In this document: in pieces, positions 30,160 to 48,788 of the stretch
How the letters are laid out: every line of letters starts with the position of its first letter
Numbering within the stretch: the first letter of the stretch is position 1
NCBI RefSeq assembly: GCF_029255285.1
Contig: NZ_JAPUVI010000023.1
Location: forward strand, 49,943 to 113,942
DNA length: 64,000 bases
Reading direction: 5' to 3'
From: Accumulibacter sp.
GTDB lineage: Bacteria > Pseudomonadota > Gammaproteobacteria > Burkholderiales > Rhodocyclaceae
Notes under the pieces: generated by a model
Told to the model about the DNA's origin: nothing
Seen by the model: only the letters and a program-made list of their open reading frames with translations
The model's database searches: none
Translations under genes and position numbers: made by a program

Positions 30160-33100
30160 CTACCGCCCCATCCCTTCCCACATCGTCTTCAGTCGCTTCA
30201 CCGAGACCGGCACCGGCGTACGCAGTTCCTGCGCGTAGAGCTGCACGCGCAGTTCCTCGAGCAGCCAGCGGTACTGCTCGAGTTCCTCGTCGATCACACC
30301 GGCCTTGGCGAGCTGGCCGGCGCGGCGCTCGTAGTGCGTCCACAGCGGTCCGTACTCGGCCATCGCCGCGGCGTCGCGGGCGGCGTTGGTGCGCAGCTTG
30401 TCGAGGCGCATCTGTGCGGCCTTCAGGTAACGCGGCAGGTGGTTCAGGCGCTCGAAGGGCAACTCGGCAAGAAAGCGCTTGTGCACCAGGCGGCCAACCT
30501 GCTTCTCGATGTCGGCGACGGCCTGAGGAAACGCCTTGGCGAAGGGCGGCAGCTTCTTTTGCAGAGCCGCCCATTCGGTGAGAATGGCGAGCGCAAGGCG
30601 CGCGATCTCCTGCAGCACGAGCCCGAGGCGCGGCTTGGCGTCGGCGCAGCGCTGGCGGAAGCCGGCCTCGTCGGTCGGCCACGGTTCGACCAGGCAGGCG
30701 CGCGCGAAGGCGAGGTCGATCAGTTGGCGCTTCAGTTCCTCGGTGGTGCCGAGGGCCATGAACAGCAGGCCCATCGGCGTGCGGTTGGGCACGTTCTTCG
30801 CGAAGTACTTGATCTGCTCGCGGAAGTGGATCAGGAACAGGCGTTGCAGTCCCTTGGCATGCGCGACCTTCGCTTCCTCGGGCGAGTCGTAGACGCGCAG
30901 CGTGACGGTGCCCTGCTCGGGGCCATCGTCCGACAGCCCGGGGTAACCGATCACACTCTGGCCGCCGGCCTGGACTTCCATCAGCTCGGGCAGCGCGCCA
31001 AAAGTCCAATCGGTGACGCCCGCGTGCTGCGCCGGCGTTTCGTGCAGGCCGGCGAATTCCTGCTTGGCCTCGCGACCCCACTCGGCGCGCAGGTCGGTGA
31101 GGCTGCGCGACAGGTCGAGTTGGCGTTGGTGCTCATCGACCAGCTTGAAGTTCATCGACAGGTGCGGCGGCAGCGCATCGGGGCGGAAGGCGTCCGGCGT
31201 CACCGCCCAGCCGCGCGCGTGCAGGGCGCGCGTGTCGAGGATGAACTGCACGAGCGCCGGCACGACGCCGGCCTGCCGCAGATTGGCGCCGGCGCCGCCT
31301 TCGGCGACCTTGGCGTCCATCCAGTCGACGAACTCCTGCGCGAACTCGGGCACCGGCACCAGCTTGGCGCGCAGCTTCTGCGGCAGTGTCTTCACGAGCT
31401 GGACGACCTTCTCCTTGAGCAGGCCGGGCACCAGCCATTCGCAGCGCGCCGGGGTGATCTGGTTGAGCTGCGCGAGGGGTAGCGTCAGCGTCACGCCGTC
31501 CTTCGGGCTGCCGGGTTCGTGGTGGTAAGTGAGCGCGTAGTCGATGCCGGAGAGGCGGATCGACGACGGGAAGGCGTCGGTCGTGATGCCGGCGGCCTCG
31601 TGCCGCATCAGGTCTTCGCGCCGCAGGTGCAGGAGCTGCGGGTTGGCGCGCTCGGCCTCGCGCCGCCAGTGCTCGAAGGCCGCGCCGTTGTGCAGGCCCA
31701 GCGCCGGGTCGTCGGGGATGTGGGCGTCGTAGAAGGCGGCGATCAGTTCGTCATCGACCAGCACGTCGGGCCGGCGCGACTTGTGTTCGAGCTTCTCGAT
31801 CTCCTCGATCAGCTTGCGGTTGTGCTGCCAGAACGCCCACTGCCGAGCGTAGACCTCGTCGATCTCACCGCCAACCAAGCCCTGGCGAATGAAGATGTGG
31901 CGCGCCTCGGACGGGTTCAGCGGTCCGTAGTGGATACGCCGCCTGGCGTAGATGACGAGGCCGTGCAGCGTCGCGCGTTCCCAGGCCGAAACCTGCATCG
32001 GTTTCTGCTCCCAATGCGGATCGAAGGTCGATTTGCGGATCAGGTGGGCGCCGACTTCCTCCAGCCATTCGGGCTCGATGCGCGCCACACAGCGCGCGTA
32101 GAGCTTGGTGGTCTCGACCAGCTCGGCGCAGACGATCCACTTGCCGGCATTCTTGGCGAGCGCCGACGAGGGATGTACCAGGTACTTCATGCCGCGCGCG
32201 CCGAGGTAGTAGCCGGATTCTTCGCTCTTGCAGCCGATGTTGCCGAGCAGGCCGCAGAGCAGGGCCTTGTGGACGCTGGCGTAATCCGCCGGCTGTTCGT
32301 TTTCGCGCCAGCCGAGCTCGCCGACCATGCCGTGCAACTGGCCGTGCAACTCGCGCCATTCGCGCAGGCGCAGCGGCGAGAGAAACCGCCTTCGTAACTC
32401 CTCGGCCAGCAGGCGGTTCGACTTCTTGTGCTGCAGCGCCTCGGCGTACCATTGCCAGAGCTTCACCCAGGCCAGGAATTCGGAGCGCGGCGGCGCCGAG
32501 CCGTCGTTCCCGGTCGCCTTGCCAATCCAGAAGCCATGCGCCTGGTCGGCGGCCTGCTGTTTCTCCTGCGGCCGTTCGCGCGGGTCCTGTACCGAGAGCG
32601 CGCTGGCGATGACCAGCATTTCCTTCAGGCAGCCGTACTGCTTCGCCGCCGCGATCATGCGCGCGACGCGCGGGTCGATCGGCAGGCGAGCGATCTCGCG
32701 GCCGGTCGGCGTCAGCTCGTTCCGCGCGTCGAGCGCGCCGAGTTCCTGCAGCAGCGCGTAACCGTCGGCGATGGACTTCGGCTGGGGGCGTTCGAGGAAG
32801 GGAAAGTCCTCGACCTTGCCGAGGTTGAGCGCCTTCATGCGCAGGATCACGCCGGCCAGCGAGGAGCGCAGGATCTCCGGGTCGGTGAAATTCGCGCGCT
32901 GCTTGAAGTCGGCCTCGTCGTAGAGGCGGAGGCAGACGCCGGCGGCGACGCGGCCGCAGCGCCCGGCGCGCTGGTTGGCCGAGGCGCGCGAGATCTTCTC
33001 GATCTGCAGTTGCTCGACCTTGTTGCGATACGAGTAGCGCTTGACGCGCGCCAGGCCCGTGTCGACGACGTAGCGGATTCCCGGCACGGTGAGCGAGGTC

Positions 33101-34191
33101 TCGGCGACGTTGGTCGCCAGCACGATGCGGCGGCCGGTGTGGGAGGCGAAGACGCGGTCCTGCTCGGCGGCGGTGAGGCGCGAGAAGAGCGTCAGGATTT
33201 CGGTGTGCGGCGGGTGGTGTTTGCGCAGGGTCTCGGCCGCCTCGCGGATTTCTCTTTCGCCTGGGAGGAAGACGAGGATGTCGCCCTGACCCAAGCGCGC
33301 GAGTTCGTCGCAAGCGTCGGCGATCGCGTCGAAGAGGTCGCGCTCTTCGCCCGCTGTTTCGTACATGGCTTCGACGTCGTCGTCTGGCCGGGTAACCGGT
33401 CGGTAGCGCACCTCGACCGGGTAGAGCCGGCCAGAGACCTCGATCACCGGCGCCGGCACCGGCTTGTCTCCGCCCTGCGCGAAGTGCTGCGCGAAGCGTT
33501 CGGCGTCGATGGTCGCCGAGGTGACGACGACCTTGAGGTCGGGCCGCTTCGGCAGGAGCTGCTTCAGGTAGCCGAGCAGGAAGTCGATGTTGAGGCTGCG
33601 CTCGTGCGCTTCGTCGATGATGATCGTGTCGTACTTCGAGAGGAGGCGATCCGACTGCGTCTCGGCGAGCAGGATGCCGTCGGTCATCAGCTTGAGGTAG
33701 GCTTCGTCGCGCGTCTGGTCCTGGAAGCGGACCTTGACGCCGACGCCCTGCCCGACCGAGGTCTTCAGCTCCTGCGCCAGGCGGGCGGCGACCGAGCGCG
33801 CAGCCAGGCGCCGCGGCTGCGTGTGGCCGATCAGGCCGCGCGCGCCACGCCCGAGTTCGAGGCAGATCTTCGGGAGCTGTGTCGTCTTGCCGGAGCCCGT
33901 CTCGCCGCAGACGATGACGACCTGGTGCGCGTCGATCAGCCGGGCGATCTCCGCGCGCCGCGCGTTGACCGGCAGATCTTCGGAATACCCGGGCGTCGGC
34001 AGGCGGGCGCGACGCTCGGCGCAGGCGGTCGTCGACTTCGCCAGCAGCGCCGCGAGGTCGGCCTCGAGCTTCGTTCGCTTCTCGCCAGCGCTGCGCTCGG
34101 CGTTCTTCTTGAGACTCAGCAGACGGCCGACATCGGACGACAGGCAGTCGTCGAAGGGCCGGCGGCGTGGGCGAACAGGGGCAGAAGACAT
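30160..34191 (-). CDS. hrpA: ATP-dependent RNA helicase HrpA
   Basis: A 1343-aa DEAH-box helicase. N-terminal helicase core: Walker A GETGSGKTTQ, QPRRLAARSVA, DEAH in IIIDEAHERSLN, SATI, and motif VI QRAGRCGR. It is followed by the HA2/OB-fold region and the long HrpA-specific C-terminal domain (DUF3418), which places it with full-length HrpA (about 1300 aa) rather than HrpB. In E. coli it takes part in mRNA processing of fimbrial operons and in ribosome rescue. It is transcribed away from the defence-like island that begins at 34426, and marks the conserved flank. Confidence 0.95.
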   Translation of the reverse strand: MSSAPVRPRRRPFDDCLSSDVGRLLSLKKNAERSAGEKRTKLEADLAALLAKSTTACAERRARLPTPGYSEDLPVNARRAEIARLIDAHQVVIVCGETGSGKTTQLPKICLELGRGARGLIGHTQPRRLAARSVAARLAQELKTSVGQGVGVKVRFQDQTRDEAYLKLMTDGILLAETQSDRLLSKYDTIIIDEAHERSLNIDFLLGYLKQLLPKRPDLKVVVTSATIDAERFAQHFAQGGDKPVPAPVIEVSGRLYPVEVRYRPVTRPDDDVEAMYETAGEERDLFDAIADACDELARLGQGDILVFLPGEREIREAAETLRKHHPPHTEILTLFSRLTAAEQDRVFASHTGRRIVLATNVAETSLTVPGIRYVVDTGLARVKRYSYRNKVEQLQIEKISRASANQRAGRCGRVAAGVCLRLYDEADFKQRANFTDPEILRSSLAGVILRMKALNLGKVEDFPFLERPQPKSIADGYALLQELGALDARNELTPTGREIARLPIDPRVARMIAAAKQYGCLKEMLVIASALSVQDPRERPQEKQQAADQAHGFWIGKATGNDGSAPPRSEFLAWVKLWQWYAEALQHKKSNRLLAEELRRRFLSPLRLREWRELHGQLHGMVGELGWRENEQPADYASVHKALLCGLLGNIGCKSEESGYYLGARGMKYLVHPSSALAKNAGKWIVCAELVETTKLYARCVARIEPEWLEEVGAHLIRKSTFDPHWEQKPMQVSAWERATLHGLVIYARRRIHYGPLNPSEARHIFIRQGLVGGEIDEVYARQWAFWQHNRKLIEEIEKLEHKSRRPDVLVDDELIAAFYDAHIPDDPALGLHNGAAFEHWRREAERANPQLLHLRREDLMRHEAAGITTDAFPSSIRLSGIDYALTYHHEPGSPKDGVTLTLPLAQLNQITPARCEWLVPGLLKEKVVQLVKTLPQKLRAKLVPVPEFAQEFVDWMDAKVAEGGAGANLRQAGVVPALVQFILDTRALHARGWAVTPDAFRPDALPPHLSMNFKLVDEHQRQLDLSRSLTDLRAEWGREAKQEFAGLHETPAQHAGVTDWTFGALPELMEVQAGGQSVIGYPGLSDDGPEQGTVTLRVYDSPEEAKVAHAKGLQRLFLIHFREQIKYFAKNVPNRTPMGLLFMALGTTEELKRQLIDLAFARACLVEPWPTDEAGFRQRCADAKPRLGLVLQEIARLALAILTEWAALQKKLPPFAKAFPQAVADIEKQVGRLVHKRFLAELPFERLNHLPRYLKAAQMRLDKLRTNAARDAAAMAEYGPLWTHYERRAGQLAKAGVIDEELEQYRWLLEELRVQLYAQELRTPVPVSVKRLKTMWEGMGR

Positions 34192-34425: not shown

Positions 34426-37308
34426 ATGAAAGACTTCTTCCTTTCGTACAACCAGGCCGACAGGGACTGGGCCGAGTGGATCGCCTGGCAGTTGGAAGAG
34501 GCCGGCTACTCGACGGTGATCCAGGCCTGGGATTTCGCGGCCGGCGGCAACTTCGTGCTGGAAATGGACCGCGCGGCCAAGGAAGCGCGCGGCACTGTCG
34601 CGGTCCTGTCCGAAAACTACTTTTCCGCGCTCTACACCCAGCCAGAATGGGCGGCTGCCTTCGCGCAAGACCCCACGGGCGCGCAGCGCCAGCTCATTCC
34701 CGTGCGCGTGCGCGAGTGCACGCCCGCGGGCCTGCTCGCGGCGATCACCTACATCGACCTGGTGGGGCTGGAACCCGCCGGGGCAAAGACGCAATTGCTC
34801 GCCGGCATCCAGGAAAAGCGTCTCAAGCCCGCTCGTGAGCCGCCGTTCCCGGGCGGCGCAGCCGGCCAAGGCGCCGCGCCACCGGCTTTCCCGGCGTCGC
34901 CATTGCCACCAATCGACCTCTCCCACCTTCCCGCCGGCGCGCCGCACTTCCTCGGCCGGCAAGCGGAACTGGCCGCCCTCGACCAGGCCTGGGCGGAAAC
35001 CGGCCGCACCCCCATCGTGCAACTGATCGCCCCCGGCGGCACCGGCAAGACGTCGCTGATGACGCGCTGGGTGGACAGGCTGCGCGCGGAAAACTGGCGC
35101 GGCGCGAAGCGGGTATTCGCCTGGAGCTTCTACAGCCAGGGCAGCGGCGAAGACCGTCGGGCGTCCGAAGACGGCTTTCTGGACGCGGCGATCCGATTTT
35201 TCGGCGTGACCGTAGAGGCTGCCGCCTCGCCCTGGGACAAGGGCGAACAACTGGCTACCACCGTGGCGGCGTACCGCAGCCTGCTCATCCTGGACGGCCT
35301 GGAGCCCTTGCAATACCCGCCGGGCCACGCGCTCGCCGGGGAACTCAAGGCGCCTGGCGTGCAAACTCTGCTCAAGCGGCTGGCCGCGCGCGGCCAGCGC
35401 GGACTGGTCCTGATCACCAGCCGCGAACACCTGGCCGATCTAGCCGACCGGGCGCGCGACGCCGAGCGCCCGGATGCCGGCGTGCTGCTGCTCGACCTGG
35501 ACAACCTGGTGGATTCCGACGGCGCCCGGCTGCTGTACAGGCTGGGCGTCCGGCGCGCCGGCGCGGCGGCCATCGCCGAGCACGCCGCCGCCACCGACGC
35601 CGAACTGCAGGCGGCGAGCCGGGAAGTCGAAGGCCATGCGCTGACGCTCGCCCTCCTGGGCAGCTACCTCGCGCGCGCCTGGGGCGGCGACGCGCGCAAG
35701 CGCGACATGGTCGATTTTGCCCGCGCCAACGAGCGCACCCACCGCGGCCACGCCTTCCGCGCCATCGCCGCCTACGAAACCTGGTTTACGCGCGAGGGCG
35801 CGGCCGGCGAGCGCGCCCTGGCCGCGCTCCGGCTGGTCGGCTTTTTCGACCGCCCGGCAAGCCGCGCCAACCTCGCCGCTTTGCGCCAACCGCCGGCCAT
35901 CGCCGGGCTCACCGAAGCGCTGGTCGGCCTCGACGAGCCGGACTGGCACGGCACGCTCGCCGACCTGGCGCACGCCGGTCTGCTGCGTTTCGACGCCGGC
36001 AGCGGCAGCGTCGATGCCCATCCGCTGCTGCGCGAGTATTTCGCGCAGCGCCTGCGGCACGACCTGCCCGCCGCCTGGCGCGAAGGCCACCGGCGCCTCT
36101 ACGAACAGATCAAGACCGACACCCCGTACCGCCCGGACGGACTGGCCGGCCTGCAGCCGCTCTACCAGGCCGTCGCCCACGGCTGCCAGGCGGGACTGGT
36201 CCAGGAGGCCTGCGACGAGGTATACCGCGAGCGCATCCTGCGGGGCACCGGGCTCGACGGCTTTTACAGCGCCAAGAAGCTCGGCGCCTTCGGCGCCGAC
36301 CTGGGGGCGTTGGCCTGCTTTTTCGACCCGCCCTGGCGGCGGCCGGTGCCGCAACTGGAGGAGGCCAACCAGGCGTGGCTGCTCAACGAAGCCGCCATCC
36401 GCCTGCGCGCGCTCGGCCGGCTCGCCGAGGCGCTGGAGCCCGTGCGCGCGGGGGCAAAAATGCGCGTGCGCCAGAATGTCTGGAATAACGCCGCCGCAAG
36501 CTACAACAACCTCAGCGAACTGCAACTCAGCCTGGGCCAAATCGACGCCGCCGTGCAGGAGGCGGCACTCGCGGTGGAGTACGCCGACCGCAGCGGCGAT
36601 ACGTTTTTGCGCATGGTCATGCGTACCGCCCTGGCCAACGCCCGACAGCAGCAGGGCGAGAGCGAGCTGGCGCGGCAGGGCTTCGCCGAGGCCGAGGGCA
36701 TGCAGGCCGAATGGCAGCCCGAGTACCCGCTGCTTTATTCGCTGCGAGGCTTCCAGTATGGCGAACGGCTGCTGGCCGCGGCCGAGCGCGCGGCCTGGCG
36801 CGGCGCGGGGGATGCGGCGACGCTGGCGGCCTGTGCCGGGGTGGCGCAGCGGGCGACGCAGACGCTAGAGTGGATCAAAGGCAAGCTCGGGCTACTCGAT
36901 GAGGCCCTCGACCACCTCACCCTGGCCCGCTGTGCCCTCTACGCCGACCTGCTGCAAGACCAGCCCCCCGGCGCCGACGCCCGCGGCGAATGCGAAGCCG
37001 CCGTATCCGGCCTGCGCGCCGCCGGAACGCAGCACGAACTTCCCCGCGGCCTGCTCACGCGCGCCTGGCTGCGCCACGCCTGCGGCGACGCCGACGGCGC
37101 CCGCGCCGATCTGGCGGAAGTGGAGACTCTCGCCAGCCGCGGCGGCATGAAACTGTTTCTCGCCGACCTGGCGCTGACCCGCGCCCGCCTGTTCCGCGAC
37201 CGCGCCCAACTGCAGCTCGCCCGCGAACTGATCGACGAATGCGGCTACGGCCGCCGCCGGCCGGAACTGCAGGACGCCGAGCAGCAGGCCGAGCGGGATG
37301 ACGGGTAG
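34426..37308 (+). CDS. TIR-STAND NTPase-TPR protein (bacterial NLR-like)
   Basis: A 960-aa protein. Residues 1-~140 form a TIR domain (FFLSYNQADRDWAEWIAWQL) with the putative catalytic Glu74 in YTQPEWAAAF, the residue TIR NADases use. Residues ~170-520 are a STAND/NB-ARC-like NTPase: Walker A APGGTGKTS (about 200-209), Walker B LLILDGLEPLQ (about 287), SREHL sensor and a DAHPLLREYF winged-helix-like end. Residues ~620-960 are helical TPR-like repeats (NNAAASYNNLSELQLSLGQI). This is the layout of antiphage sensors that oligomerise on ligand recognition and deplete NAD. The start at 34426 gives the TIR start directly. No signal peptide is present. Confidence 0.82.
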   Translation: MKDFFLSYNQADRDWAEWIAWQLEEAGYSTVIQAWDFAAGGNFVLEMDRAAKEARGTVAVLSENYFSALYTQPEWAAAFAQDPTGAQRQLIPVRVRECTPAGLLAAITYIDLVGLEPAGAKTQLLAGIQEKRLKPAREPPFPGGAAGQGAAPPAFPASPLPPIDLSHLPAGAPHFLGRQAELAALDQAWAETGRTPIVQLIAPGGTGKTSLMTRWVDRLRAENWRGAKRVFAWSFYSQGSGEDRRASEDGFLDAAIRFFGVTVEAAASPWDKGEQLATTVAAYRSLLILDGLEPLQYPPGHALAGELKAPGVQTLLKRLAARGQRGLVLITSREHLADLADRARDAERPDAGVLLLDLDNLVDSDGARLLYRLGVRRAGAAAIAEHAAATDAELQAASREVEGHALTLALLGSYLARAWGGDARKRDMVDFARANERTHRGHAFRAIAAYETWFTREGAAGERALAALRLVGFFDRPASRANLAALRQPPAIAGLTEALVGLDEPDWHGTLADLAHAGLLRFDAGSGSVDAHPLLREYFAQRLRHDLPAAWREGHRRLYEQIKTDTPYRPDGLAGLQPLYQAVAHGCQAGLVQEACDEVYRERILRGTGLDGFYSAKKLGAFGADLGALACFFDPPWRRPVPQLEEANQAWLLNEAAIRLRALGRLAEALEPVRAGAKMRVRQNVWNNAAASYNNLSELQLSLGQIDAAVQEAALAVEYADRSGDTFLRMVMRTALANARQQQGESELARQGFAEAEGMQAEWQPEYPLLYSLRGFQYGERLLAAAERAAWRGAGDAATLAACAGVAQRATQTLEWIKGKLGLLDEALDHLTLARCALYADLLQDQPPGADARGECEAAVSGLRAAGTQHELPRGLLTRAWLRHACGDADGARADLAEVETLASRGGMKLFLADLALTRARLFRDRAQLQLARELIDECGYGRRRPELQDAEQQAERDDG

Positions 37309-37572
37309 CCGCCTTGCGCGGCGAGTCCTGGGCACGCAAACCGGAACGAACAAATGGCAAGGATTACCGTCCTCGGATGACTCGTAGCACGCGCGCACGA
37401 GGAGCCGTTGGAAGTCGCGGGAGGGCATCGCAACGCGATCACCTTGCGATTGGGAGAAGGGCAAGGCCGAACGAACAGACTGCCGCGTGGTCTTGCTTTC
37501 TAGAGGATTTCTTCATCGCTCCGGATTTCCGCGCCGCGTGCGCCATCGCGGCCAGATGACAGGAGGACGGCC
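37309..37572. other. Intergenic region in the TIR-unknown-PLD cassette
   Basis: 264 bases between the TIR gene and the 984-codon gene. No convincing gene, terminator or sigma-70 promoter was seen. An AGGAGG ribosome site precedes the next ATG. Confidence 0.35.
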
Positions 37573-40527
37573 ATGCAACCGGAAGAGCTGTTTCGCTTCG
37601 TCGCCTTGCGCGCGCCACGTGCGCGCCGGCAGCGACTGGATCTGGGGTTTTCGACTGGCTCGACACCCTTCATGCGCGAACTGCTGGACGACCTGCGCCA
37701 GCCCGACGCGTCGGCGCGCGCACTGGCGCGCGCCGACGCGCTGCTCGCGGGTGACAGCGTCCCGCGCGACCCCGCGCAAAACCCGCAGTTCGAGCGGCTC
37801 GAGCGCTTCCTTGCGCGCTATCGGCGCCACCCACCGGCGGACGTGGCCACGGCGAACGCGTTGGCCGTCGATGTCTTCGGCCGTGATGCAGCGGCGGTCA
37901 TCGCCAACCGCCGCTTCGGCGCGGCGGAGCGGAACGCCCGCGACGCCGTCGTCGCCCTGAAACTGCGTTCGGCCGGCCGGGCGGGCTTGCTTGCCCGCTA
38001 TACGCGCATCGTGCAGTGCGCGGACTTTCTGCGCCGGCTGGCGCGCGACCCGGAAGGCATCGACTTCGCGCGCCCGTCCGCCGCGCTCGCGCGCACGCTG
38101 AGCCTGCCGGTCGAATTCGCGGCGCTTGCCGTGCGCGCCGGCCCGCCGACCGATACGCCCGAGGAACCCACGGAGGAAGGCGACGCCGCCGGGGCCGGGC
38201 GCGAGATCGAAAGCCGCGTCTCCGCCCTCGATCGTGCCCTGGTCGAACTTTCCGCCAACGCCACCCAGCTCGAACGGCGCACGGCCACGACGCCTGCCGC
38301 GCAAGCGGCGCTGGTGCTCTCCGCCCGGGCGCGCGAGCGCCTTTCCGCGCCGACGCGCGCGCTGCTCGCGAGCGAGCGGATCAACCTCGCCACGACCGCG
38401 TTCGGCGAGGCGATCGACGCCCTGCACGGAGCCCGGGCCGCGCTGGTGGCGGCCTTGCCTGCCGGCGACGGCGATGTGGACGCGGGCGACGGCGACCAGG
38501 CGCGCACGGCGATCGCCGCGCTGGTGCTGCCGCAACCGGCGGCGCAACCGTCGATTCCGCTCGACCCGGCGTTCGTCGATCCGGGAACGATGCCGCCGAC
38601 CACGGTCGGGCCGCTGCGGCCGACCGGCGTGGGCCAGCTTCTCATCGTGCGCCAGCAACTCCTGCGCTACGAGGCGGCCGACATCAGCCACGTACACAAC
38701 GTCATGCGCTCCGAAACGCAGTCGCGCAGCACGCGGCGCCTGACGCGCAGCGAAGAAACTTTCCAGACCGAAGAAGAGAGAAGCAGCGAAGAGGAACGCG
38801 ACCTGCAAAGCACGGAGCGCTTCGGGCTGCGTACGGAAATCGAAAATACCCTCGCCAACACGCGCCAGTTCAATGTGGGCGCGTCCGTGTCGGCCGGCTA
38901 CGGCCCGTTCGTGCAGGTCGAGGCTTCGACCCAGTTCGAAACCTCGGCCTCGTCCGAACAGGCGGAATCCTCGGCCACCGAATATGCGCGCGAGGTCACC
39001 GAAAGCACGGCCAAGCGCGTCGCGCATCGCGTGCGTACGCAGCAGACGCGTACCACGCTCGAAGAATTCGAGGAAAACAACAGTCACGGCTTCGACAACA
39101 GCGCTGGCGACAGCCACGCGGTCGGCATCTATCAATGGCTCAATCGCGTCTATCGGATGCAGATTTACGACTATGGCGTGCGCCTGCTGCTCGAATGCAC
39201 GGTGCTGGAGCCGGCGGCCCTCTACCTCAATGCGCTGAAGTCGCAGATCGTCAAGCCGGCCGGGCTCAACCAACCGAAGCCGCTGACGATCAGGCCCGAC
39301 CAGATCACTACGGGCAACTATCGCCAGCACGTCGCCACTTATCGTGCCGAGGACGTGAAGGCGCCACCGCCCGAGCGGCGCACGGTCGCGCACACCTTTT
39401 CCCACAATTCGCCAGACGGCACGCGCGTCGAACACGCCGCCGAAACGAACCTGATCGTACCCGAAGGTTACCGTGCCTACGAGGTACGCGCCGCGATCGT
39501 CATGGACCCGCCCGTGGCGCCAGCGCTGCCGCCGGATTTCGGCGGTGACGACGGCGGCGGTCCGGCGTTGGCCGACGACCCGACCAACCGCGTCGACATC
39601 CTCGTCGCGCACCAGCGCGTCTTCCGGCACCAGGCCGTCGACGGCGGCAGCGTCACTGTCACGGAAGACCAATACGATCCGCTGGACCTGCCCGAAGGCG
39701 AGGTGCCGGTCGCCGTCAATGCCGTGAACGTGCGCTCCTATGCGGCCACGGTAACGGTCGTCTGCGTGCGCACCGCGCACGGCTTCGAGAAATGGCAGCT
39801 CGACACCTACGCGGCGCTGGCGCGCGCCTACGCCGCGCGCAAGACCGAATACGAAGAAAAGCTCGCGTCGCTCGCTGCCGCGCAGGGGGTCACCCCCGAA
39901 GGGCGCAACCCGGCCATGAACCGCATCCTGGAGCGCAACGAAATGAAACGCCTCGCGATCATGATGCTGAGCGGTCAGCGCTTCAGGTCGACGGCCGTGC
40001 CGCTGTCGCCGCAGGCTGCGGAATTCGATTTCGACCGCATGCTGCGCGCCGGCCGCTACGCGCGCTTCTGGGAAAGCGTGATCGACTGGCGCAATCTCGA
40101 TTACGAATTCCTGCCCTACTACTGGGCGCGCCAGTCGACCTGGGGCCGGCTGTTGACCGAGGGCGAAGACCCGCTGCACGCGCAGTTCATCGCCGCCGGC
40201 GCAGCGACGATACGGCTCGCCGCGACGCCAGGCATGGAAGCGGCTCTGCTGCACTTTTTCGAGACGGGTGAAATCTGGGATGGCGGCGAATTGCCCGCTG
40301 TCACGCGCGACGATTTTGTCGCCTTCCTGGAAGAGATTGCCGAGCGCCGGCCCGACCCGGTCGATGCGGGCGTGGCACCGCTGGGCGGCATGCCGTCCGT
40401 GGAAATTCCGGTCGGCGACCCCTGGGAAGTCACGCTGCCGACCACCCTGGTACGGCTGCGCCCGGACAACACGCTGCCGCAGTGGCAGCAGGAGGCCGAC
40501 GGACGCTGGGTCGAGGCGGAAGCCTAG
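37573..40527 (+). CDS. Large protein of unknown family, upstream of phospholipase D
   Basis: A 984-aa protein with no signal peptide and no membrane helix. Residues 1-~360 are Ala/Arg-rich and helical. A distinctive central block follows: LRYEAADISHVHNVMRSETQ (about 364), a charged STE-rich stretch (EETFQTEEERSSEEERDLQS), an alternating Ser/hydrophobic segment FNVGASVSAGYGPFVQVEAS (about 433), a basic helix (AREVTESTAKRVAHRVRTQQ), and FDNSAGDSHAVGIYQWLNRVY (about 507). The C-terminal ~400 residues look mixed alpha/beta with WRNLDYEFLPYYWAR. I have an impression of a wider bacterial family sharing the central block but cannot name it. AGGAGG precedes the ATG. The PLD gene begins 13 bases after the stop, so the two are coupled. 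Confidence 0.8.
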   Translation: MQPEELFRFVALRAPRARRQRLDLGFSTGSTPFMRELLDDLRQPDASARALARADALLAGDSVPRDPAQNPQFERLERFLARYRRHPPADVATANALAVDVFGRDAAAVIANRRFGAAERNARDAVVALKLRSAGRAGLLARYTRIVQCADFLRRLARDPEGIDFARPSAALARTLSLPVEFAALAVRAGPPTDTPEEPTEEGDAAGAGREIESRVSALDRALVELSANATQLERRTATTPAAQAALVLSARARERLSAPTRALLASERINLATTAFGEAIDALHGARAALVAALPAGDGDVDAGDGDQARTAIAALVLPQPAAQPSIPLDPAFVDPGTMPPTTVGPLRPTGVGQLLIVRQQLLRYEAADISHVHNVMRSETQSRSTRRLTRSEETFQTEEERSSEEERDLQSTERFGLRTEIENTLANTRQFNVGASVSAGYGPFVQVEASTQFETSASSEQAESSATEYAREVTESTAKRVAHRVRTQQTRTTLEEFEENNSHGFDNSAGDSHAVGIYQWLNRVYRMQIYDYGVRLLLECTVLEPAALYLNALKSQIVKPAGLNQPKPLTIRPDQITTGNYRQHVATYRAEDVKAPPPERRTVAHTFSHNSPDGTRVEHAAETNLIVPEGYRAYEVRAAIVMDPPVAPALPPDFGGDDGGGPALADDPTNRVDILVAHQRVFRHQAVDGGSVTVTEDQYDPLDLPEGEVPVAVNAVNVRSYAATVTVVCVRTAHGFEKWQLDTYAALARAYAARKTEYEEKLASLAAAQGVTPEGRNPAMNRILERNEMKRLAIMMLSGQRFRSTAVPLSPQAAEFDFDRMLRAGRYARFWESVIDWRNLDYEFLPYYWARQSTWGRLLTEGEDPLHAQFIAAGAATIRLAATPGMEAALLHFFETGEIWDGGELPAVTRDDFVAFLEEIAERRPDPVDAGVAPLGGMPSVEIPVGDPWEVTLPTTLVRLRPDNTLPQWQQEADGRWVEAEA

Positions 40528-40540
40528 AGCGGCGGGCAAG

Positions 40541-42388
40541 ATGGCACGGGAGAGCCCCGCCGACCGCTATTTTCTGGACGAGGTTGCGAGCAGCGATCCG
40601 TTTTTCCGCGCGCCGATGCGGCGCTCATGCCTGGTCGAACCGCTGGTGGACCGTGCTCCGGCGCTGGCGGCCATCGAACGCGCGATAGCGGCGGCCCGCC
40701 GGAGCGTCATGCTCGCGGGTTGGGTGTTTCTGCCCGCGACGCCGCTGCTCGATGCGGGCGTGGGCAAGCTGACGCGCGGGCGAACCTGGCTCGACCTGGT
40801 CGAATTCGTGCTCACCCAAGCGGAGCCGGTCAACGTTCGCCTCATCGTGACCGATTTCGACCCCTTGTTCGAAGCCGGCAATCACCGCCTGTGCTGGAGC
40901 GCGCTCTCCGAATTCGCCAGGCTGCGGGCGCGCCTGCCTGCGGACCGGCGAGCCAACTTCGAATTCATAGGCAGCCTGCACGGATTCTTCCTGACGCCAT
41001 CCTTCCTCACCCTGGGTTTCCTGTCGCTGACCGAGCAGATAAAGGTGCTGGTCGCCGAATACAACAAAGCGAAGTTCGTGACCGCCCTGGCGCGCTATAG
41101 ACGCACGCCGGGCCACTGGTCGAGCATCGACGTGGACGAAGGGAAACGCCGCTTCGCGATGAGCGGCACGCCGGAGACGCGTGTGTTCCTGGCCAGCCAC
41201 CATCAGAAGACCTGCGTCGTCGACGGCGAGGTCGCCTTTTGCGGAGGCATGGATATCACTCCGCTGGCGCTCGACAATCCGACGCACGCGACGCGCCGCC
41301 ATCCCTTCCGCAAGGGCGAAAACGACCTGTCGTGGCACGACCTGCACGCGCGCCTGGAAGGCGACGTCGTCATCGACCTCGAACGCAACTTCCGCGAGCG
41401 CTGGAATCTGGAACTGTTGGCCTTCAGCGCGCGCATCGGCGGCTTCGCGGCCGTCATGCCCGCGAAAGGGGAACTGCCGTTCTCTGCGCTGACCCCGATC
41501 CGCGACCCTGGCCGCCGCACGGGCCGGACGCCGGGCACCGACGCCGCCCAGGTGCTGCGCACGATCAGCGCCGACAAGGCCGGGCAGTTCGTGCCGGAAA
41601 TCAAGCGCGAAGACATCTTCGAGGCCTATGCCAGGGCGATCGGCGGGGCCGAGCAATACGTCTACCTGGAAAACCAGTATTTCCGTTCGACGCCGCTCAC
41701 CGACGCCATCATCGCCCGTCACGCCGAAGCACCGCGACTCCAGGTGATCCTGGTCATTCCGGTGGCGCCGGAAGAGCTGACCGATCTGGCCGCCGCCGAC
41801 CCCAAGGCGCTGCACCCCGTGGCCGTGCAGATCAAGGAACTCAAGCGCCTGCAGGCGGCGTTGGGACCGAATTTCGGCGTGTTCTCGCTGGTGCTGCCGC
41901 AACGCGCGCGACGCAGGAAATTCACCGACGTCGCCGGCAGTCCGCAGCTCTACGTGCACAGCAAGATTTGCATCGTCGATGACGAATTCGCGACCATAGG
42001 CTCCGCCAACGCCAATGGCCGCAGCTTCGCGATGGACACGGAACTGAACGTCGGCTGGTTCCAGCGTTCGCACGTCAAGCGCTTCCGGATCGACCTGTGG
42101 CGCCATCTGCTCGGCCGCGCGGCCGCGGACGTCGATACCTGGCCCGCCACCGCGTTCACTGCCACATGGCGCGCCATCGCCACCACCAATCTCCTCGCTC
42201 CGCCCGCCGCCCGCTCCGGCTTCGTCGTTCCCCACGACTTCGCGGCGCTGGACGCCGTGGCCAAGGAAATGCCGCTGGTGCCGCCAACCTTCATCGATAT
42301 CGCGGACATCCTGCCGGAATCGGCCTCGCCCGACCTCGTTTCCGCCGACGAATCGCGCGACGAGCTGGCGGCTGCGCCGCTGAGCTGA
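40541..42388 (+). CDS. Phospholipase D-superfamily protein (two HKD motifs)
   Basis: A 615-aa protein with two complete PLD catalytic motifs: HHQKTCVVDGEVAFCGGMD (about residue 220) and VHSKICIVDDEFATIGSANA (about residue 471). The H-x-K-x4-D-x6-G(G/S) form and the overall size resemble phospholipases rather than small nucleases such as Nuc. The segment YVYLENQYF before the second motif is also typical of phospholipase D. No signal peptide. It could act on phospholipid or nucleic acid; in defence context PLD domains act as nuclease or membrane effectors, and PLDs also serve as interbacterial toxins. It starts 13 bases after the 984-aa gene. The start is taken at 40541; the frame is open further upstream. 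Confidence 0.85.
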   Translation: MARESPADRYFLDEVASSDPFFRAPMRRSCLVEPLVDRAPALAAIERAIAAARRSVMLAGWVFLPATPLLDAGVGKLTRGRTWLDLVEFVLTQAEPVNVRLIVTDFDPLFEAGNHRLCWSALSEFARLRARLPADRRANFEFIGSLHGFFLTPSFLTLGFLSLTEQIKVLVAEYNKAKFVTALARYRRTPGHWSSIDVDEGKRRFAMSGTPETRVFLASHHQKTCVVDGEVAFCGGMDITPLALDNPTHATRRHPFRKGENDLSWHDLHARLEGDVVIDLERNFRERWNLELLAFSARIGGFAAVMPAKGELPFSALTPIRDPGRRTGRTPGTDAAQVLRTISADKAGQFVPEIKREDIFEAYARAIGGAEQYVYLENQYFRSTPLTDAIIARHAEAPRLQVILVIPVAPEELTDLAAADPKALHPVAVQIKELKRLQAALGPNFGVFSLVLPQRARRRKFTDVAGSPQLYVHSKICIVDDEFATIGSANANGRSFAMDTELNVGWFQRSHVKRFRIDLWRHLLGRAAADVDTWPATAFTATWRAIATTNLLAPPAARSGFVVPHDFAALDAVAKEMPLVPPTFIDIADILPESASPDLVSADESRDELAAAPLS

Positions 42389-42798: not shown

Positions 42799-43443
42799 TC
42801 AGGCAATCAAACGCAAGATTCCGTCGCGGAACTTGGCGAAACTGGGGGACTTGTTCTTTCCCAAATTCATGTGGCGCGAAATGGCTTCGGCCCATTCGTG
42901 CTTGACTTGCCCAGGCAAGGGGCCGCCGATTCTGCGTATTGCCGCGCTTCCTCCCGGAAACACCGCATCAGCGAGGCGTTCCCATGTGCCGCAAATGCTG
43001 TCTTGCTCATAGCGATCCAGCACAGCCACTTTCGCTCTTGGGTAAGCCAAAAGGATCGCCTCTCTGTCACCTAGAAGCCAGGCTTCCATCTCTTCGATTG
43101 CCAATCGGAAAAGCGTATTTGGGACGGGATTGCACTGCGCCAGAAGCGCTTTCAACTCCGCTAGAAATGCCTTGCAATCCCGATGGTCAGTGTCGACTAC
43201 AACCACAACAGCGTCGACACCAGGGGTCTTGCCGTATCCAGCCAACAATCTTGGAAGCCGATTGAGCAGGGCACGCTTTGCAGGGTCACCCCCAGCGGCC
43301 AGATTGGGTGGCAGGCGCCCTATCCCCTTGTACGGATGAATGCGCCAAGTATGTGGCTCATCATAGTTCCCGATCAAAGCAGGCAGCAAGGTCTCGATCA
43401 ACTTGGCTCCCGAGCCGTCCTCCACAAGCACTTCGATATGCAT
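42799..43443 (-). CDS. DUF4276 / TOPRIM-like partner of the AAA ATPase
   Basis: A 214-aa protein with a TOPRIM-like pattern: an acidic first motif in IEVLVEDGSGAKLIETLL, a DxD-type motif in VVVVVDTDHRDCKAFL, and a conserved IEEMEAWLLGD helix. This is the DUF4276 layout, commonly encoded next to COG4637-type ATPases. By analogy with ATPase/TOPRIM defence pairs (OLD, Gabija, PARIS), it may be the nuclease or effector half; that is inference. It begins three bases after the stop of the ATPase gene. Confidence 0.78.
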   Translation of the reverse strand: MHIEVLVEDGSGAKLIETLLPALIGNYDEPHTWRIHPYKGIGRLPPNLAAGGDPAKRALLNRLPRLLAGYGKTPGVDAVVVVVDTDHRDCKAFLAELKALLAQCNPVPNTLFRLAIEEMEAWLLGDREAILLAYPRAKVAVLDRYEQDSICGTWERLADAVFPGGSAAIRRIGGPLPGQVKHEWAEAISRHMNLGKNKSPSFAKFRDGILRLIA

Positions 43444-43446
43444 GGT

Positions 43447-44682
43447 TCAGTTCGCGTCCAGATAGTCGCTGTACCAGAGGCTACCGAGCGGCAAACCCTC
43501 ATCGACCAGATTCCTCACCAATGCTAGGTCGGATACGCGTTGCACCGTCGAGTAACCGTCCGCGCCCTTTTTCAGTATCCAGACTTCCTGGGGAGTCAGC
43601 GCGTCCACGAAGTAAGGCTGATGCGTCGTCACGAAAATCTGCGGCGCGTTCTTCTTTCCAGTCGCGTGGTTTCGCAATTCGGTGGCGAGCGTATCCAGCA
43701 ACCTGTGATACAGCCCGTTTTCCGGTTCTTCGATGCAAATGAACGGAGGTGGCTCCGGGTCTTCCATCAACAAGAGGTAAGCAAATATCTTCAATGTGCC
43801 GTCCGACATCTGCCCCGCATAAAACGGATCGGCGAACGCCCCGTCATTGAATTGCAGCAGTACCCGCTTGTCCTCCGTCACCAGGGTCTTGATGCGCTGG
43901 ATACCGGGGATTTTTGCCGCGATCCGGTCAAGAATCGACTGGAAGCGCTCCTTGTGCTCCCGTTCCATGTATTGCACGACGTTGCCGATGTTGTCGCCAT
44001 GCATGTTCAGGTGACGCTGCGCGCCGGCGGATGGAATAGAGCGTGCCGCGTCGGGGTGGAAGTACGACAGAAACCAGCCTTTCAGAAAATCCCTGAACCG
44101 TTTGATACGCGGATGCTCCTTGAGGGTTCCCAGGGTGGCGATCCCCAGTTGCCGGAGATCGGTGAGGGTGACGTCCATCTTCGTATTCGGCTCTTCGTCG
44201 CCCTCGCCTTCCAGAGCGGTGTCTCCCGCCCATGCCGTCCCCGAGCCCTGCGTCAAGCGCAGAAAGGGATAAGGCCGACCGAAGCGCTGGCCTTTTCGGC
44301 GTTGTCCGAGAAACTCGTAACGCACATAGGGACGACACGATTCATCCAGATCGATGTGCAGATCGTAGGTGATTGGCCGCTCACTCGTTGACTCGCGGTA
44401 GTAAATCTCGAAGCAGATCGGTTCGCTCGTGGCGAGCGAGCGCATCCGCTCGAATCCGCCACGCTGTTTTGCATCGCAGGCCGTTTCCAGGTCGGTGGAA
44501 AGACAATCGGCGACGAAGCCGAAAGCATCGAACAACGTGCTCTTGCCCACACCGTTCTTGCCGATCACCACGGTGAAGGGCGTCAGAGCTTCGGCCTGCT
44601 GCTGTCCGGTCGACAATTTGCCCAGCGTCACGTCGCGGAGCGCCCGGTAATTCCTCACCCGAAATCCTTCGATCAACGCCAT
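43447..44682 (-). CDS. AAA (SMC/OLD-like) ATPase, COG4637 type
   Basis: A 411-aa ABC-type ATPase of the OLD/RecF kind: N-terminal IEGFRVRNYRALRDV strand, Walker A GKNGVGKST, signature-like GQMSDGTLKIFAYLLLME, Walker B FICIEEPENGL and the switch histidine FVTTHQPYFVD. No coiled-coil insert long enough for a true SMC is present. GGAGG precedes the ATG at 44682 with ideal spacing. It is coupled to the TOPRIM-like gene downstream and lies 37 bases after the type III methyltransferase. Such pairs often act as phage sensors and effectors; its sequence appears less GC-rich than the chromosome around it. Confidence 0.85.
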   Translation of the reverse strand: MALIEGFRVRNYRALRDVTLGKLSTGQQQAEALTPFTVVIGKNGVGKSTLFDAFGFVADCLSTDLETACDAKQRGGFERMRSLATSEPICFEIYYRESTSERPITYDLHIDLDESCRPYVRYEFLGQRRKGQRFGRPYPFLRLTQGSGTAWAGDTALEGEGDEEPNTKMDVTLTDLRQLGIATLGTLKEHPRIKRFRDFLKGWFLSYFHPDAARSIPSAGAQRHLNMHGDNIGNVVQYMEREHKERFQSILDRIAAKIPGIQRIKTLVTEDKRVLLQFNDGAFADPFYAGQMSDGTLKIFAYLLLMEDPEPPPFICIEEPENGLYHRLLDTLATELRNHATGKKNAPQIFVTTHQPYFVDALTPQEVWILKKGADGYSTVQRVSDLALVRNLVDEGLPLGSLWYSDYLDAN

Positions 44683-44719
44683 TTTGTTCCTCCAAAAACG
44701 CCCAGCCACTTAAGCATCG

Positions 44720-47605
44720 TTACACCCTGAACACCTTCATCACCTCATCCCCCAGGTGATTGATGACCTTCACCGCGATTCGCCCGGATTTCGGTTTCTC
44801 GAATGGGCGCGAGGTGTCGCTGTTGAGCGAGGCCCAGGCTTCGGCGTCGATCTCGGCCTTCAGCGTGGTCTTCAATGCGCGGTAGGGGTCGTTGGCGCCG
44901 AGGAAGTAGGCATGGCGGACGAAGAAGCTTTCCTCGTTGTAGTCCGTGTCGACGAACCAGCAGGCGATGCCGTCGGCGCCATCGCTGATGACCTCGCCGG
45001 TCTGCGGCTTGAACACGTCGACACCATTCACCTTCACGCGTAGGGTGTCGTGGTCTTCCCGGATCAGCGTGATGTCCGGCTCGCCGAAAATCACGAACAG
45101 GTTGCCCTTGCCGGTGTTCTTGAGGTCTTCGGCCATGTGCAGGTCGGCGTTCATGCGCGCCTTGAGCACCGGCAGCTTGCCGAGCTTGGAAAACTCCGTG
45201 GTGTGCGCCTCGAAGTTGAAGGCGCAGGCGATCAGCACGTCGAAACCGGCATCGGCGGCCTCGCGTGCCGCCTCGACCAGATCGGCGCGCTGCACGGTGC
45301 CGAATTCGGGGCCGATGAAGATGGCGGCACGCTTTTCCACGCCTTCCGCTTCCAGGTAGCGGCCTTCCGCACAGACCATGTCACCCGGCCAGGCGACCAG
45401 CGAAATGAAGGCAATGCGGTCGGCCTTGTGCGCCTGCTGCACGCCGGCGGTCTTGAGGTTGTCCAGAATCATCTGCGGGAAAGACTGCTTGACCGCATAC
45501 TTGGCCTCCTGCTGGCGCAGAGTGTCGATCAGTTCGTCGTCTTCATCGACGCCCAATACGCGATGCGGACTCAGGCTCTCGACGGTGAACGGCCCCGCCA
45601 CGCGCACCGCCTTCCTGTTCTCGTAGGGCTTGTCGTAGAGATACTCGAATTCGGCTTTGGCGGCGATGGAGGCGTCGATTTCCTTCTGCCGCGCGATACG
45701 CGCCTGCCACCAGTCGGCGTGGAGCTTCTTCGTCGCGTCCGGCCAGTTCGCATCGGCCTCGCGAGGAATTTCCCATTCCTGCCAGCACTTCTTCAGCGCG
45801 GCATTCATTGACTCGCGCAGAGGCTCCAACTTGGCCTGCCATTGCTCCCAGATCACGTCGATCTCCGCATTGTTGGCGATTGATCCTGACGTAATGTAGG
45901 CACAACGGCGATAGACAAAGCCGTGGCGGATGTTGCCATGGGTCGGCTGCGAACTGGGCGCCGTACGCGTGACTTCGGCCTCCTTCCATTGGCCTTCGCG
46001 GGAATCGGCGAGCAGGTAGTAGGGATAGCGGGTGCCCATGATGCGGGCACGAGCCAGCGCCAACGCGACGCGCGAAGTGTCGATGGTGATCCAGCGACGA
46101 CCCCATTGTTCTGCAACCGTGGCGGCGGTGCCGGAACCGCAAGTGGGGTCGAGGACGAGGTCGCCGGGGTCAGTCGCCATCAAGATACAGCGTTCCACAA
46201 TGCGCTCGTTCGTCTGCACGACATAGACTTGATCGGATGCTCCGCCAAGTCCATCCCACCAATTTGAAATGCCTTTGTATGGGAAGTCGTCCAAATAGCG
46301 CTTGAAGTCAAGGCTCGATCGCGAGCGAACCAACCTTCCAGCAACCAAGTTGCGCATCATCCCACTCAAACCTATTGCTGGCGTCTTAGACGTATGGCTC
46401 CAACATCGCCCTTTGGGGGGATGGGTCAATTCGCCATCTAGGCGTATAGGGTCCATCTGCGAAGCTCTCTCGCCACCATTGGTAACCGGCCATGGTCGGA
46501 AGAGGCGACCACCGGGGAACTGTTGGTCAATCCGTCTTGGGTAAGCACGGAAATCGAGTTTTTCACCCGACGAGTCAGTGAAGCTCTTTAAGTTCACCGT
46601 CTTTCCAGTCGGTAGCTCGATTCGCGAAAACTCGTCGATAGTCTCACTGTCGAGCATCCGCGCTTCGTAGAGCGTCCTGAACTTCGTTATCCCGTCGGCA
46701 CGCTTGGACTTCGAGTACCACAGAATGAAGTCGTTTACGGGGTCCATCAATGAAGATTTTTGGCTTCCCTTTTTCTTTACGAGAATCTCGGTTACTACGT
46801 TTTTGTCCCCAAACACCTCATCCATCACCGCCCTCACCCGATGCACATTCTCATCGCCAATCTGCACAAAGATCGACCCCGAATCCGTCAGCAGATCGCG
46901 CGCCACCGTCAGCCGGTCGCGCAGGTAGGTGAGGTAGGAATGAATCCCGTCGCGCCAAGTATCGCGAAACGCCTTGACCTGCTCCGGTTCGCGGGTGATG
47001 TGACTGGCATTACCGTCCTTGACGTCGCGGCTGGTCGTTGACCACTGGAAGTTGCTGTTGAATTTGATGCCGTAGGGTGGATCGAAATAGATGCACTGCA
47101 CCTTGCCGCGCAGCCCCTCACGCTCGGCAAGGCTGGCCATGACCTGAAGGCTGTCGCCGAGGATCATGCGGTTGCTCCAGTTCTGGTCGTGCTGATAGAA
47201 CTCGGTCTTGTCGACGCCCTGCGGAATGCCGTTGAAATCGGCGAAGAGGTCGGGCGTCGTCTGCCCCGCTTCGTGCTGGCGTTCCTTCGATGTGCGCAGC
47301 AGGTCGTCGATCAGCGCCTTGGGATGCACCTTCTCCTGAATGTAGAGCGGCGGCGCATGGACGACGAGATCGCTCCAGTCCTGTTCGTCCTTGCCGCGCC
47401 AGACCAGTTGCGGGTCGAGGTCGCGGTTTCTGGACGACGCTTCCGCAGACAGCGCAGAAACGTCGGGGCGCGGGTAGCGCACCTGCCTGGGGTTTTTCTG
47501 CGCGTCGTCGAGCACCGACTGGTATTCGGCGGTGGGGATGTTCTTGCGCTTGGCGTCGTCGTGCTTGATCGCGTCGACGGATTTGGAGGCGGGTGGTTTG
47601 GCCAT
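44720..47605 (-). CDS. mod: Type III restriction-modification methyltransferase (Mod)
   Basis: A 961-aa beta-class adenine methyltransferase. Catalytic motif IV DPPYG occurs at about residue 174 (CIYFDPPYGIKFN) and the SAM-binding motif I at about 485 (VLDPTCGSGTAATVAEQWGR), the IV-TRD-I order typical of Mod. The region between (about 258-470) is the target-recognition domain and is visibly AT-richer than the rest. A long C-terminal extension (about 550-961) of unclear role follows, larger than usual for Mod (~650). The ATG at 47605 follows GGGAG and is four bases after the Fic stop. It works with Res at 48789-51842. Confidence 0.9.
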   Translation of the reverse strand: MAKPPASKSVDAIKHDDAKRKNIPTAEYQSVLDDAQKNPRQVRYPRPDVSALSAEASSRNRDLDPQLVWRGKDEQDWSDLVVHAPPLYIQEKVHPKALIDDLLRTSKERQHEAGQTTPDLFADFNGIPQGVDKTEFYQHDQNWSNRMILGDSLQVMASLAEREGLRGKVQCIYFDPPYGIKFNSNFQWSTTSRDVKDGNASHITREPEQVKAFRDTWRDGIHSYLTYLRDRLTVARDLLTDSGSIFVQIGDENVHRVRAVMDEVFGDKNVVTEILVKKKGSQKSSLMDPVNDFILWYSKSKRADGITKFRTLYEARMLDSETIDEFSRIELPTGKTVNLKSFTDSSGEKLDFRAYPRRIDQQFPGGRLFRPWPVTNGGERASQMDPIRLDGELTHPPKGRCWSHTSKTPAIGLSGMMRNLVAGRLVRSRSSLDFKRYLDDFPYKGISNWWDGLGGASDQVYVVQTNERIVERCILMATDPGDLVLDPTCGSGTAATVAEQWGRRWITIDTSRVALALARARIMGTRYPYYLLADSREGQWKEAEVTRTAPSSQPTHGNIRHGFVYRRCAYITSGSIANNAEIDVIWEQWQAKLEPLRESMNAALKKCWQEWEIPREADANWPDATKKLHADWWQARIARQKEIDASIAAKAEFEYLYDKPYENRKAVRVAGPFTVESLSPHRVLGVDEDDELIDTLRQQEAKYAVKQSFPQMILDNLKTAGVQQAHKADRIAFISLVAWPGDMVCAEGRYLEAEGVEKRAAIFIGPEFGTVQRADLVEAAREAADAGFDVLIACAFNFEAHTTEFSKLGKLPVLKARMNADLHMAEDLKNTGKGNLFVIFGEPDITLIREDHDTLRVKVNGVDVFKPQTGEVISDGADGIACWFVDTDYNEESFFVRHAYFLGANDPYRALKTTLKAEIDAEAWASLNSDTSRPFEKPKSGRIAVKVINHLGDEVMKVFRV

Positions 47606-47609
47606 GGTG

Positions 47610-48698: not shown

Positions 48699-48705
48699 TT
48701 GTTTA

Positions 48706-48765
48706 CATGTCCCGATTGACGCGTATAGATATATGCGATTTTATATGCACAATATGCGGGACATG
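48706..48765 (-). promoter_or_regulatory. Inverted-repeat operator and AT-rich promoter region of the Fic-mod unit
   Basis: CATGTCCCG (48706-48714) and CGGGACATG (48757-48765) are a perfect 9-bp inverted repeat flanking a 42-base AT-rich tract just before the Fic start. The tract holds three ATATGC repeats (48731, 48743, 48752). On the minus strand a TTGTGC at 48752-48747 could serve as -35, but the -10 is poor. The arrangement suggests a looped or dimeric repressor site. Confidence 0.45.
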
Positions 48766-48788
48766 CCAACCGTAGGCGTGAACGGCAT

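Follow-up and report, generated by a model that had tools for sequence, protein, structure and literature searches.

Among the systems that exchange their toxins, polymorphic toxins combine a conserved part with exchangeable parts, and the available part of their description gives HxxxDxxxH and NxxE as elements of the signature of the toxin HET-C (PMC3482391). Umbrella particles of Streptomyces are antibacterial multi-protein complexes with variable toxin parts, in which, according to the accessible part of the source, UmbC with its ALF repeats and TAT signal is joined by partner subunits (PMC11062931). Binary (A-B) toxins are encoded by two genes, one for a long-stranded protein with an amphipathic hairpin and one for an enzyme. 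Here we analysed a 64,000-nucleotide stretch of DNA from Accumulibacter sp. (contig NZ_JAPUVI010000023.1, positions 49,943 to 113,942; hereafter the window), in which a protein of 984 amino acids (aa) belonging to an unnamed family, termed the hub in the following, is encoded directly upstream of a phospholipase D (PLD). Comparison of 100 hub loci points to a module of two genes, in which the second gene has been exchanged time and again for unrelated ones.

The hub could not be assigned to any known family, as an earlier note on this DNA had already said. Searches of Pfam, PADLOC, NCBIfam and PHROGs returned nothing at E ≤ 1, the best match to PDB sequences had an E-value of 0.014, and a profile built from 85 hub sequences reached 0.24 at best against PDB. 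Relatives with 26–37% identity were detected by tblastn in 12 plasmids, the hosts being Sinorhizobium, Ensifer, Cupriavidus, Tsukamurella, Streptomyces, Chryseobacterium and the archaeon Natronorubrum. One scan of species genomes confirmed 504 relatives; the best 80 of these were kept and, together with other sources, gave the 100 loci, window included. Of the 99 loci outside the window 79 could be placed, and they fall into 14 phylum-level groups of bacteria and archaea (Actinomycetota 29, Pseudomonadota 23, Bacteroidota 8, and eleven more groups with one to three loci each, including Methanobacteriota with two). Close to the lineage of the window the hub is rare, occurring in 2 of 61 relatives, 7 of 369 genomes of the class and 6 of 398 of the phylum, with the own genome counted each time. 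It was absent from all 50,697 phage records searched, and four IMG/VR contigs encode it. Literature searches, whose coverage excluded preprints and most subscription papers, found neither a description of the hub family by title or abstract start nor a described system of this composition, as the earlier note had held. Two distant hub relatives (L031 and L137) are followed by small open reading frames (ORFs) starting like KFNVxMDVxxMxGKTVLVFLKPQNPQ, and in L137 an extracytoplasmic function (ECF)-sigma-like ORF lies upstream of the hub, both as judged by eye.

A usable ORF on the same strand follows the hub in 89 of the 100 loci. Loci without a partner, or with a partner shorter than 100 aa, were excluded (L011, L023, L076, L077, L113), and others were left out because the hub was split or the ORF was short or doubtful (L030, L031, L043, L075, L099, L112). 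L042 and L054, which repeat L026 and L027, were kept among the 89, corresponding to 87 groups at 99% and 80 at 90% hub identity; for the partner ORFs of L005, L010, L012, L039, L044, L057 and L110, a different frame or start was set manually. In 78 of the 89 loci the partner starts within 60 nt on either side of the hub stop codon (median 18). When hubs of at least 90% identity are merged, this still applies to 69 of the 80 remaining loci. The hub and PLD genes of the window, which ORF coordinates place 13 bases apart just as the earlier note claimed, can be regarded as a unit. The order is not absolute: a related gene precedes the hub in L011 and L089, while the hubs of L009, L024 and L025 have a patatin-like gene upstream and are followed by another gene. 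The hubs of L024 and L025 reside on IMG/VR contigs resembling the Chryseobacterium plasmid locus L009. Hub-enzyme fusions, or partner similarity inside hubs, were not found in the 100 hubs.

The 89 partners fall into 31 unrelated clusters, 16 of them singletons, and all 31 persist after merging at 90%. Pfam matches were obtained for all four members of the PLD cluster (window, L036, L038, L106), for 3 of 3 members tested of a six-member patatin cluster, for 3 of 3 in a cluster of four PhoD phosphatases (one below cut-off) and for 2 of 2 in a cluster of five protein-arginine deiminases (PAD). Single tested members likewise matched in the clusters of LodA oxidases (five loci, two of them repeats), M23 peptidases (four members, Micromonospora) and Rv2525c-like hydrolases (four members; match just below cut-off); all other cluster members were assigned by phmmer linkage alone. 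Among the single partners are an Amidase_3 protein with a SPOR domain (L088) and a Mur ligase (L028). A cluster of twelve gave a pre-toxin TG match in one of three members tested, L007 and L107 being without match. In a cluster of six, HxxxDxxxH and NxxE are invariant, and the Pfam family Het-C was hit below threshold in one member (E 0.03) and not at all in another. No domain was assigned to 37 of the 89 partners. These include an enzyme-like orphan family of nine members of about 360 aa (L005, L039, L040, L041, L044, L051, L052, L057, L058), which are 44–90% identical to L005 and share many invariant residues, with no Pfam match in the two members tested (L005, L041) and no match of the cluster profile to PDB. 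In PDB searches, the profiles built for three partner clusters reached no E-value below 0.2.

How often partners change was assessed on a tree of the hub core with 74 rows, 62 of which carried one of 15 partner labels. By a quick method, the labels require 29 changes, as compared to a minimum of 14 and a mean of 46.9 after shuffling, and none of 200 shuffles gave as few as 29. The observed number, lying between minimum and shuffled value, indicates that partners are inherited for a while but replaced often. Indeed, unrelated partners occur on hubs whose cores are 73–80% identical. For example, L050 with a partner of the pre-toxin cluster and L053 with a patatin share 0.80 of core positions, whereas identity drops to 0.39 in the N-terminal domain and to 0.47 in the jelly-roll; the type of partner showed no clear correspondence to the N-domain of the hub. 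The window hub groups at 100 with L036 (PLD, Microbacterium) and with L034 and L035 (PhoD, Roseobacter), and L038 (PLD, Polyangium) joins next at 95. Repeated exchange of partners across the hub family is, as far as sequence comparison can tell, well supported.

Alignments and structure models of the window hub and the L050 core suggest how the hub may be built. A conserved core is predicted to consist of very long antiparallel strands and a helix-hairpin-helix insert; in the model of the L050 core there are four strands of 25–28 residues, with the insert between the second and the third. Within the core lies a conserved hairpin with a YGP turn, whose arms display an amphipathic pattern (p ≤ 0.05) in 68 of 74 rows for arm 1 and 58 of 74 for arm 2, as compared to 5.7% of random 11-mers. 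This hairpin suggests a ring that inserts into membranes. The core is followed by a jelly-roll-like domain that evolves faster, and the N- and C-terminal parts of the hub are predicted to be helical.

The reading that we tentatively put forward, as a possible one suggested by sequences and models, is that the hub acts as a carrier of the pore-forming type, whose toxin enzyme is exchangeable. That is, a conserved protein, as a rule with one exchangeable enzyme encoded directly downstream, would form an oligomeric carrier, whose long strands and amphipathic hairpin would insert into the target membrane, while the jelly-roll, and perhaps the N-terminal domain as well, would recognise the target. 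The hub would thereby transport the enzyme to the envelope of a different cell or through it, and lipids, peptidoglycan, protein or nucleic acid would then be attacked; in the window, the payload would be the PLD, cutting membrane phospholipids. Release from the producer might occur by lysis, the hub and the PLD having no signal-peptide-like start. Because the enzymes, i.e. phospholipases, wall hydrolases and toxin-type proteins, differ in the compartment in which they act and are exchanged, docking or delivery is the most likely role of the hub; we infer the partners to be toxins. Fold comparisons gave no significant match. The model of the whole hub found nothing in PDB at E ≤ 0.001 (best 1.0e-2), and the L050 core domain retrieved 41 rows at E ≤ 10, none significant. 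In favour of the carrier reading, 34 of these non-significant rows, many of them representing one protein several times over, belong to pore-forming toxins or to the translocases of binary toxins (aerolysin, lysenin, protective antigen, CDTb, iota Ib and others); the remaining seven are phage tail, portal or flagellar-ring proteins. Two viral fold matches (a phage tail protein, E 5.5e-4, and an unnamed one, E 8.1e-4) were discarded as uninformative, with query TM values of 0.11 and 0.08. A wider claim appears doubtful, namely that the hub founds a new superfamily of bacterial and archaeal pore-forming translocators, which would carry about ten or more unrelated enzyme families as separate, exchangeable payloads into other cells in the manner of binary toxins and independently of known secretion machines.

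The main competing explanation, which we consider unlikely, holds that the hub is an intracellular sensor of infection that activates an exchangeable effector enzyme and thereby kills the infected cell, protecting against phages. A conserved first protein with swapped effectors is also the layout of modular anti-phage systems, and known defence systems include effectors of the patatin and PLD types. Cytosolic action would suit the lack of signal-peptide-like starts, as no hydrophobic 15-mer (KD > 2) was present in the first 60 residues of any of the 89 partners or 100 hubs, with starts chosen mechanically. However, partners acting on peptidoglycan (amidase, M23) would have nothing to do inside the cytosol, and those of the pre-toxin TG and HET-C-like kinds are suggestive of polymorphic toxins instead. 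Moreover, nine further hubs gave no Pfam match above cut-off and no sensor domain. The hub itself matched none of the known defence models in PADLOC; the window PLD, which was the partner scanned, yielded weak DrmC matches only (best E 1.4e-5). The surroundings speak on both sides. The window adjoins a type III restriction island, and a SIR2_2 gene lies close downstream of the hub in L011 (Ensifer adhaerens plasmid, 0–19 kb), which is one hub inside a defence-like neighbourhood. Among 121 of 230 flanking genes, a random subset from 69 loci, one was hit by phospholipase effector models of PADLOC (E 5.4e-61) and is probably the patatin that precedes the hub in L024, a gene included in the subset, but no Pfam or PADLOC family occurred in more than two of the 121, a count for which no background rate is at hand. 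In the same L011 region, DrmB-like and helicase-like ORFs were noticed by eye upstream of the hub.

Equally, it is improbable that the hub serves as a cage, fibre or envelope scaffold that stores a lipid, wall or redox enzyme of the producer and has no role in conflict. This view draws on the single hub found in 46 of 50 genomes (the second copies in the other four have neighbours unlike all 89 partners at E ≤ 1e-4), on jelly-rolls being found in scaffolds too, and on flanking genes that are mixed and largely housekeeping. It also gains from the absence of a recurrent immunity-gene family beside the hub, although immunity genes vary, in a clustering of flanks from 90 loci (10 near-duplicates omitted; mechanical ORFs of at least 80 aa). 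A recurrent third gene was not apparent there either, ABC ATPases being present in 10 of the 90 loci and any other family in at most four. On the other hand, the partner enzyme types share no pathway, and the frequent exchange and the faster-evolving jelly-roll and N-domain fit a conflict better than storage.

Cargo of a contractile injection system, be it an extracellular contractile injection system (eCIS), a type VI secretion system (T6SS) or a tailocin, with the hub as adaptor and the enzyme as effector, is quite improbable. The partner repertoire does resemble T6SS and eCIS effectors, and in the genome of the window one sheath gene exceeds the Pfam cut-off, with a weaker second match on another contig. 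By eye, a sheath-like ORF is also present near the hub on the IMG/VR contig L025. However, no such family recurs beside the hub, and a T6SS was rejected for the own genome, which has no VipA match. Sheath matches were found in 19 of 50 hub genomes and not in the other 31 (genome completeness not given), making a contractile system unlikely as a requirement. In L141 (G000:C22:251000-270288), a locus of the own genome, two sheath matches, one of them above the Pfam cut-off, are separated by a short ORF at about 8.2–12.6 kb and may represent an eCIS- or tailocin-like cluster.

In the window, the three ORFs that the earlier note had listed are present on the plus strand (Table 1). The PLD contains two HxKx4D motifs within its PLD domains, in agreement with the two HKD motifs ascribed to it before. 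Although minus-strand ORFs outcompeted its frame in a rough gene list, the frame was accepted because of the Pfam match. Its relatives in PDB are phospholipases D1, D2 and D alpha 1, as well as a 1099-aa 'Phospholipase D', which we take to be the Pseudomonas T6SS effector PldA.

Table 1. Coordinates of the features discussed, in window positions
Feature	Position	Strand	Remarks
hrpA-like gene	30160-34191	-	label from the earlier note
TIR-STAND-TPR protein, 960 aa	34426..37308	+	TIR_2 Pfam match; neighbour, judged outside the module
Hub, 984 aa, unnamed family	37573..40527	+	first gene of the two-gene module; no family match
Hub residues 346-600, conserved core	38608..39372	+	from alignments and models of the window hub and L050 core
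Hub residues 432-461, conserved amphipathic beta-hairpin, YGP turn	38866..38955	+	possible membrane-inserting stem
Hub residues 601-734, jelly-roll-like domain, evolving faster than core	39373..39774	+	possible recognition domain
PLD, 615-aa phospholipase D	40541..42388	+	PLDc_2 and PLDc (Pfam); exchangeable partner (payload) gene
First HxKx4D motif of PLD (residues 221-228)	41201..41224	+	motif search
Second HxKx4D motif of PLD (residues 473-480)	41957..41980	+	motif search
Restriction island	42799-51842	-	DUF4276 + AAA_21 pair; type III Mod and Res flanking a Fic-domain gene

The gene upstream of the hub encodes a protein with a TIR_2 domain (E 1.6e-33), followed by AAA_16 (E 3.1e-5) and TPR_8 (E 0.2) matches that are both below their cut-offs; PADLOC models cover its TIR part alone. 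Matches at E ≤ 1e-30 occur in 9 of 61 genomes, own included, mostly to the TIR part only, with relatives near full length in G009 and G026 and one covering residues 151–953 in G016. The third-codon-position GC content (GC3) of its ORF is 0.86, that of the hub ORF 0.84. That this gene, the hub and the PLD form one three-gene defence cassette, as the earlier note considered, is very improbable: the genes are adjacent and on the same strand in this single genome, but none of the 99 other hub loci has a TIR-STAND relative (tblastn E ≤ 1e-4; phmmer E ≤ 1e-2; loci of 4.7 to 26 kb, with less than 5 kb upstream of the hub in 18 and downstream in 12), the hub was not found, with a single-protein query, in G009, G016 and G026, which have TIR-STAND or STAND relatives, and 264 nt precede the hub as compared to 13 nt between hub and PLD. 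The co-occurrence of hub homologues with TIR-STAND genes that had been proposed as a check was not seen in any of these 99 loci, an absence that the earlier note had named as one part of what would refute a system. The TIR protein may stand alone, which is the other possibility raised at that time. We judge it to be an independent NLR-like, defence-type gene outside the module.

The type III restriction island that had been described beside these genes is indeed there, with DUF4276, AAA_21, Mod, Fic and Res all found, and the genes downstream of the PLD form a compact defence-type island. An IS66 end could not be upheld as a boundary, as the 412 bp 3' of the PLD gave short matches of 70–73% in five plasmids, annotated otherwise. 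On the other side, 28 of 31 genomes contain a relative of the hrpA-like gene at E ≤ 1e-200. When regions of 8 relatives were compared for an insertion site (none longer than 19.9 kb, one of 6.2 kb), this gene was the only one of 19 window genes to be recovered, so that no boundary could be drawn beside it.

If the hub is a delivery protein, nature would have provided a mix-and-match carrier of unrelated enzymes, and the partners without assigned domain could point the way to new families of toxins. If it were a sensor, it would represent a new modular immune hub. Either way, a family of about 1000 aa, spread over 14 phylum-level groups and exceeding no Pfam or NCBIfam cut-off in any member tested, is tied to exchangeable enzymes, and the role of orphan enzymes becomes testable, including some LodA-type oxidases and bacterial arginine deiminases.

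How, then, does the module relate to known systems? The TIR-STAND NLR-like defence proteins resemble the product of the neighbouring gene, with its TIR domain and its matches below cut-off to an AAA_16-type NTPase and TPR; this gene, hit by PADLOC in its TIR part only, is judged to lie outside the hub/PLD module. LodA/LodB operons are approached in L026 and L027, two metagenome-assembled genomes (MAGs) with a hub directly upstream of the LodA gene (Pfam match in L026), which is followed in the place of LodB by a FAD-protein-like ORF, as judged by eye; the available part of the description of these operons names no large protein before lodA (PMC4417212). Umbrella particles share with the proposed module variable toxin parts in an antibacterial complex, as far as the accessible part of their description goes (PMC11062931), whereas the hub has no Pfam match and no signal-like start. 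Polymorphic toxin systems are similar in their conserved and exchangeable parts, and the pre-toxin TG and HET-C-like partners recall them within the part of the source available (PMC3482391). Here, however, the toxin would be a separate gene and not a C-terminal domain of the same protein, and the module has neither a recurrent immunity gene nor a Pfam trafficking domain in the hubs tested. With binary toxins, the module has in common two genes, one for a protein with predicted long strands and an amphipathic hairpin and the other for an enzyme, and a weak, non-significant structural ranking of the hub points in the same direction. It differs from them in that no sequence relation, no significant fold match and no signal-peptide-like starts were found, and in its far wider range of enzymes and hosts. 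We place the hub module among the exchangeable-toxin systems, and there is a real chance that it represents a kind of its own.

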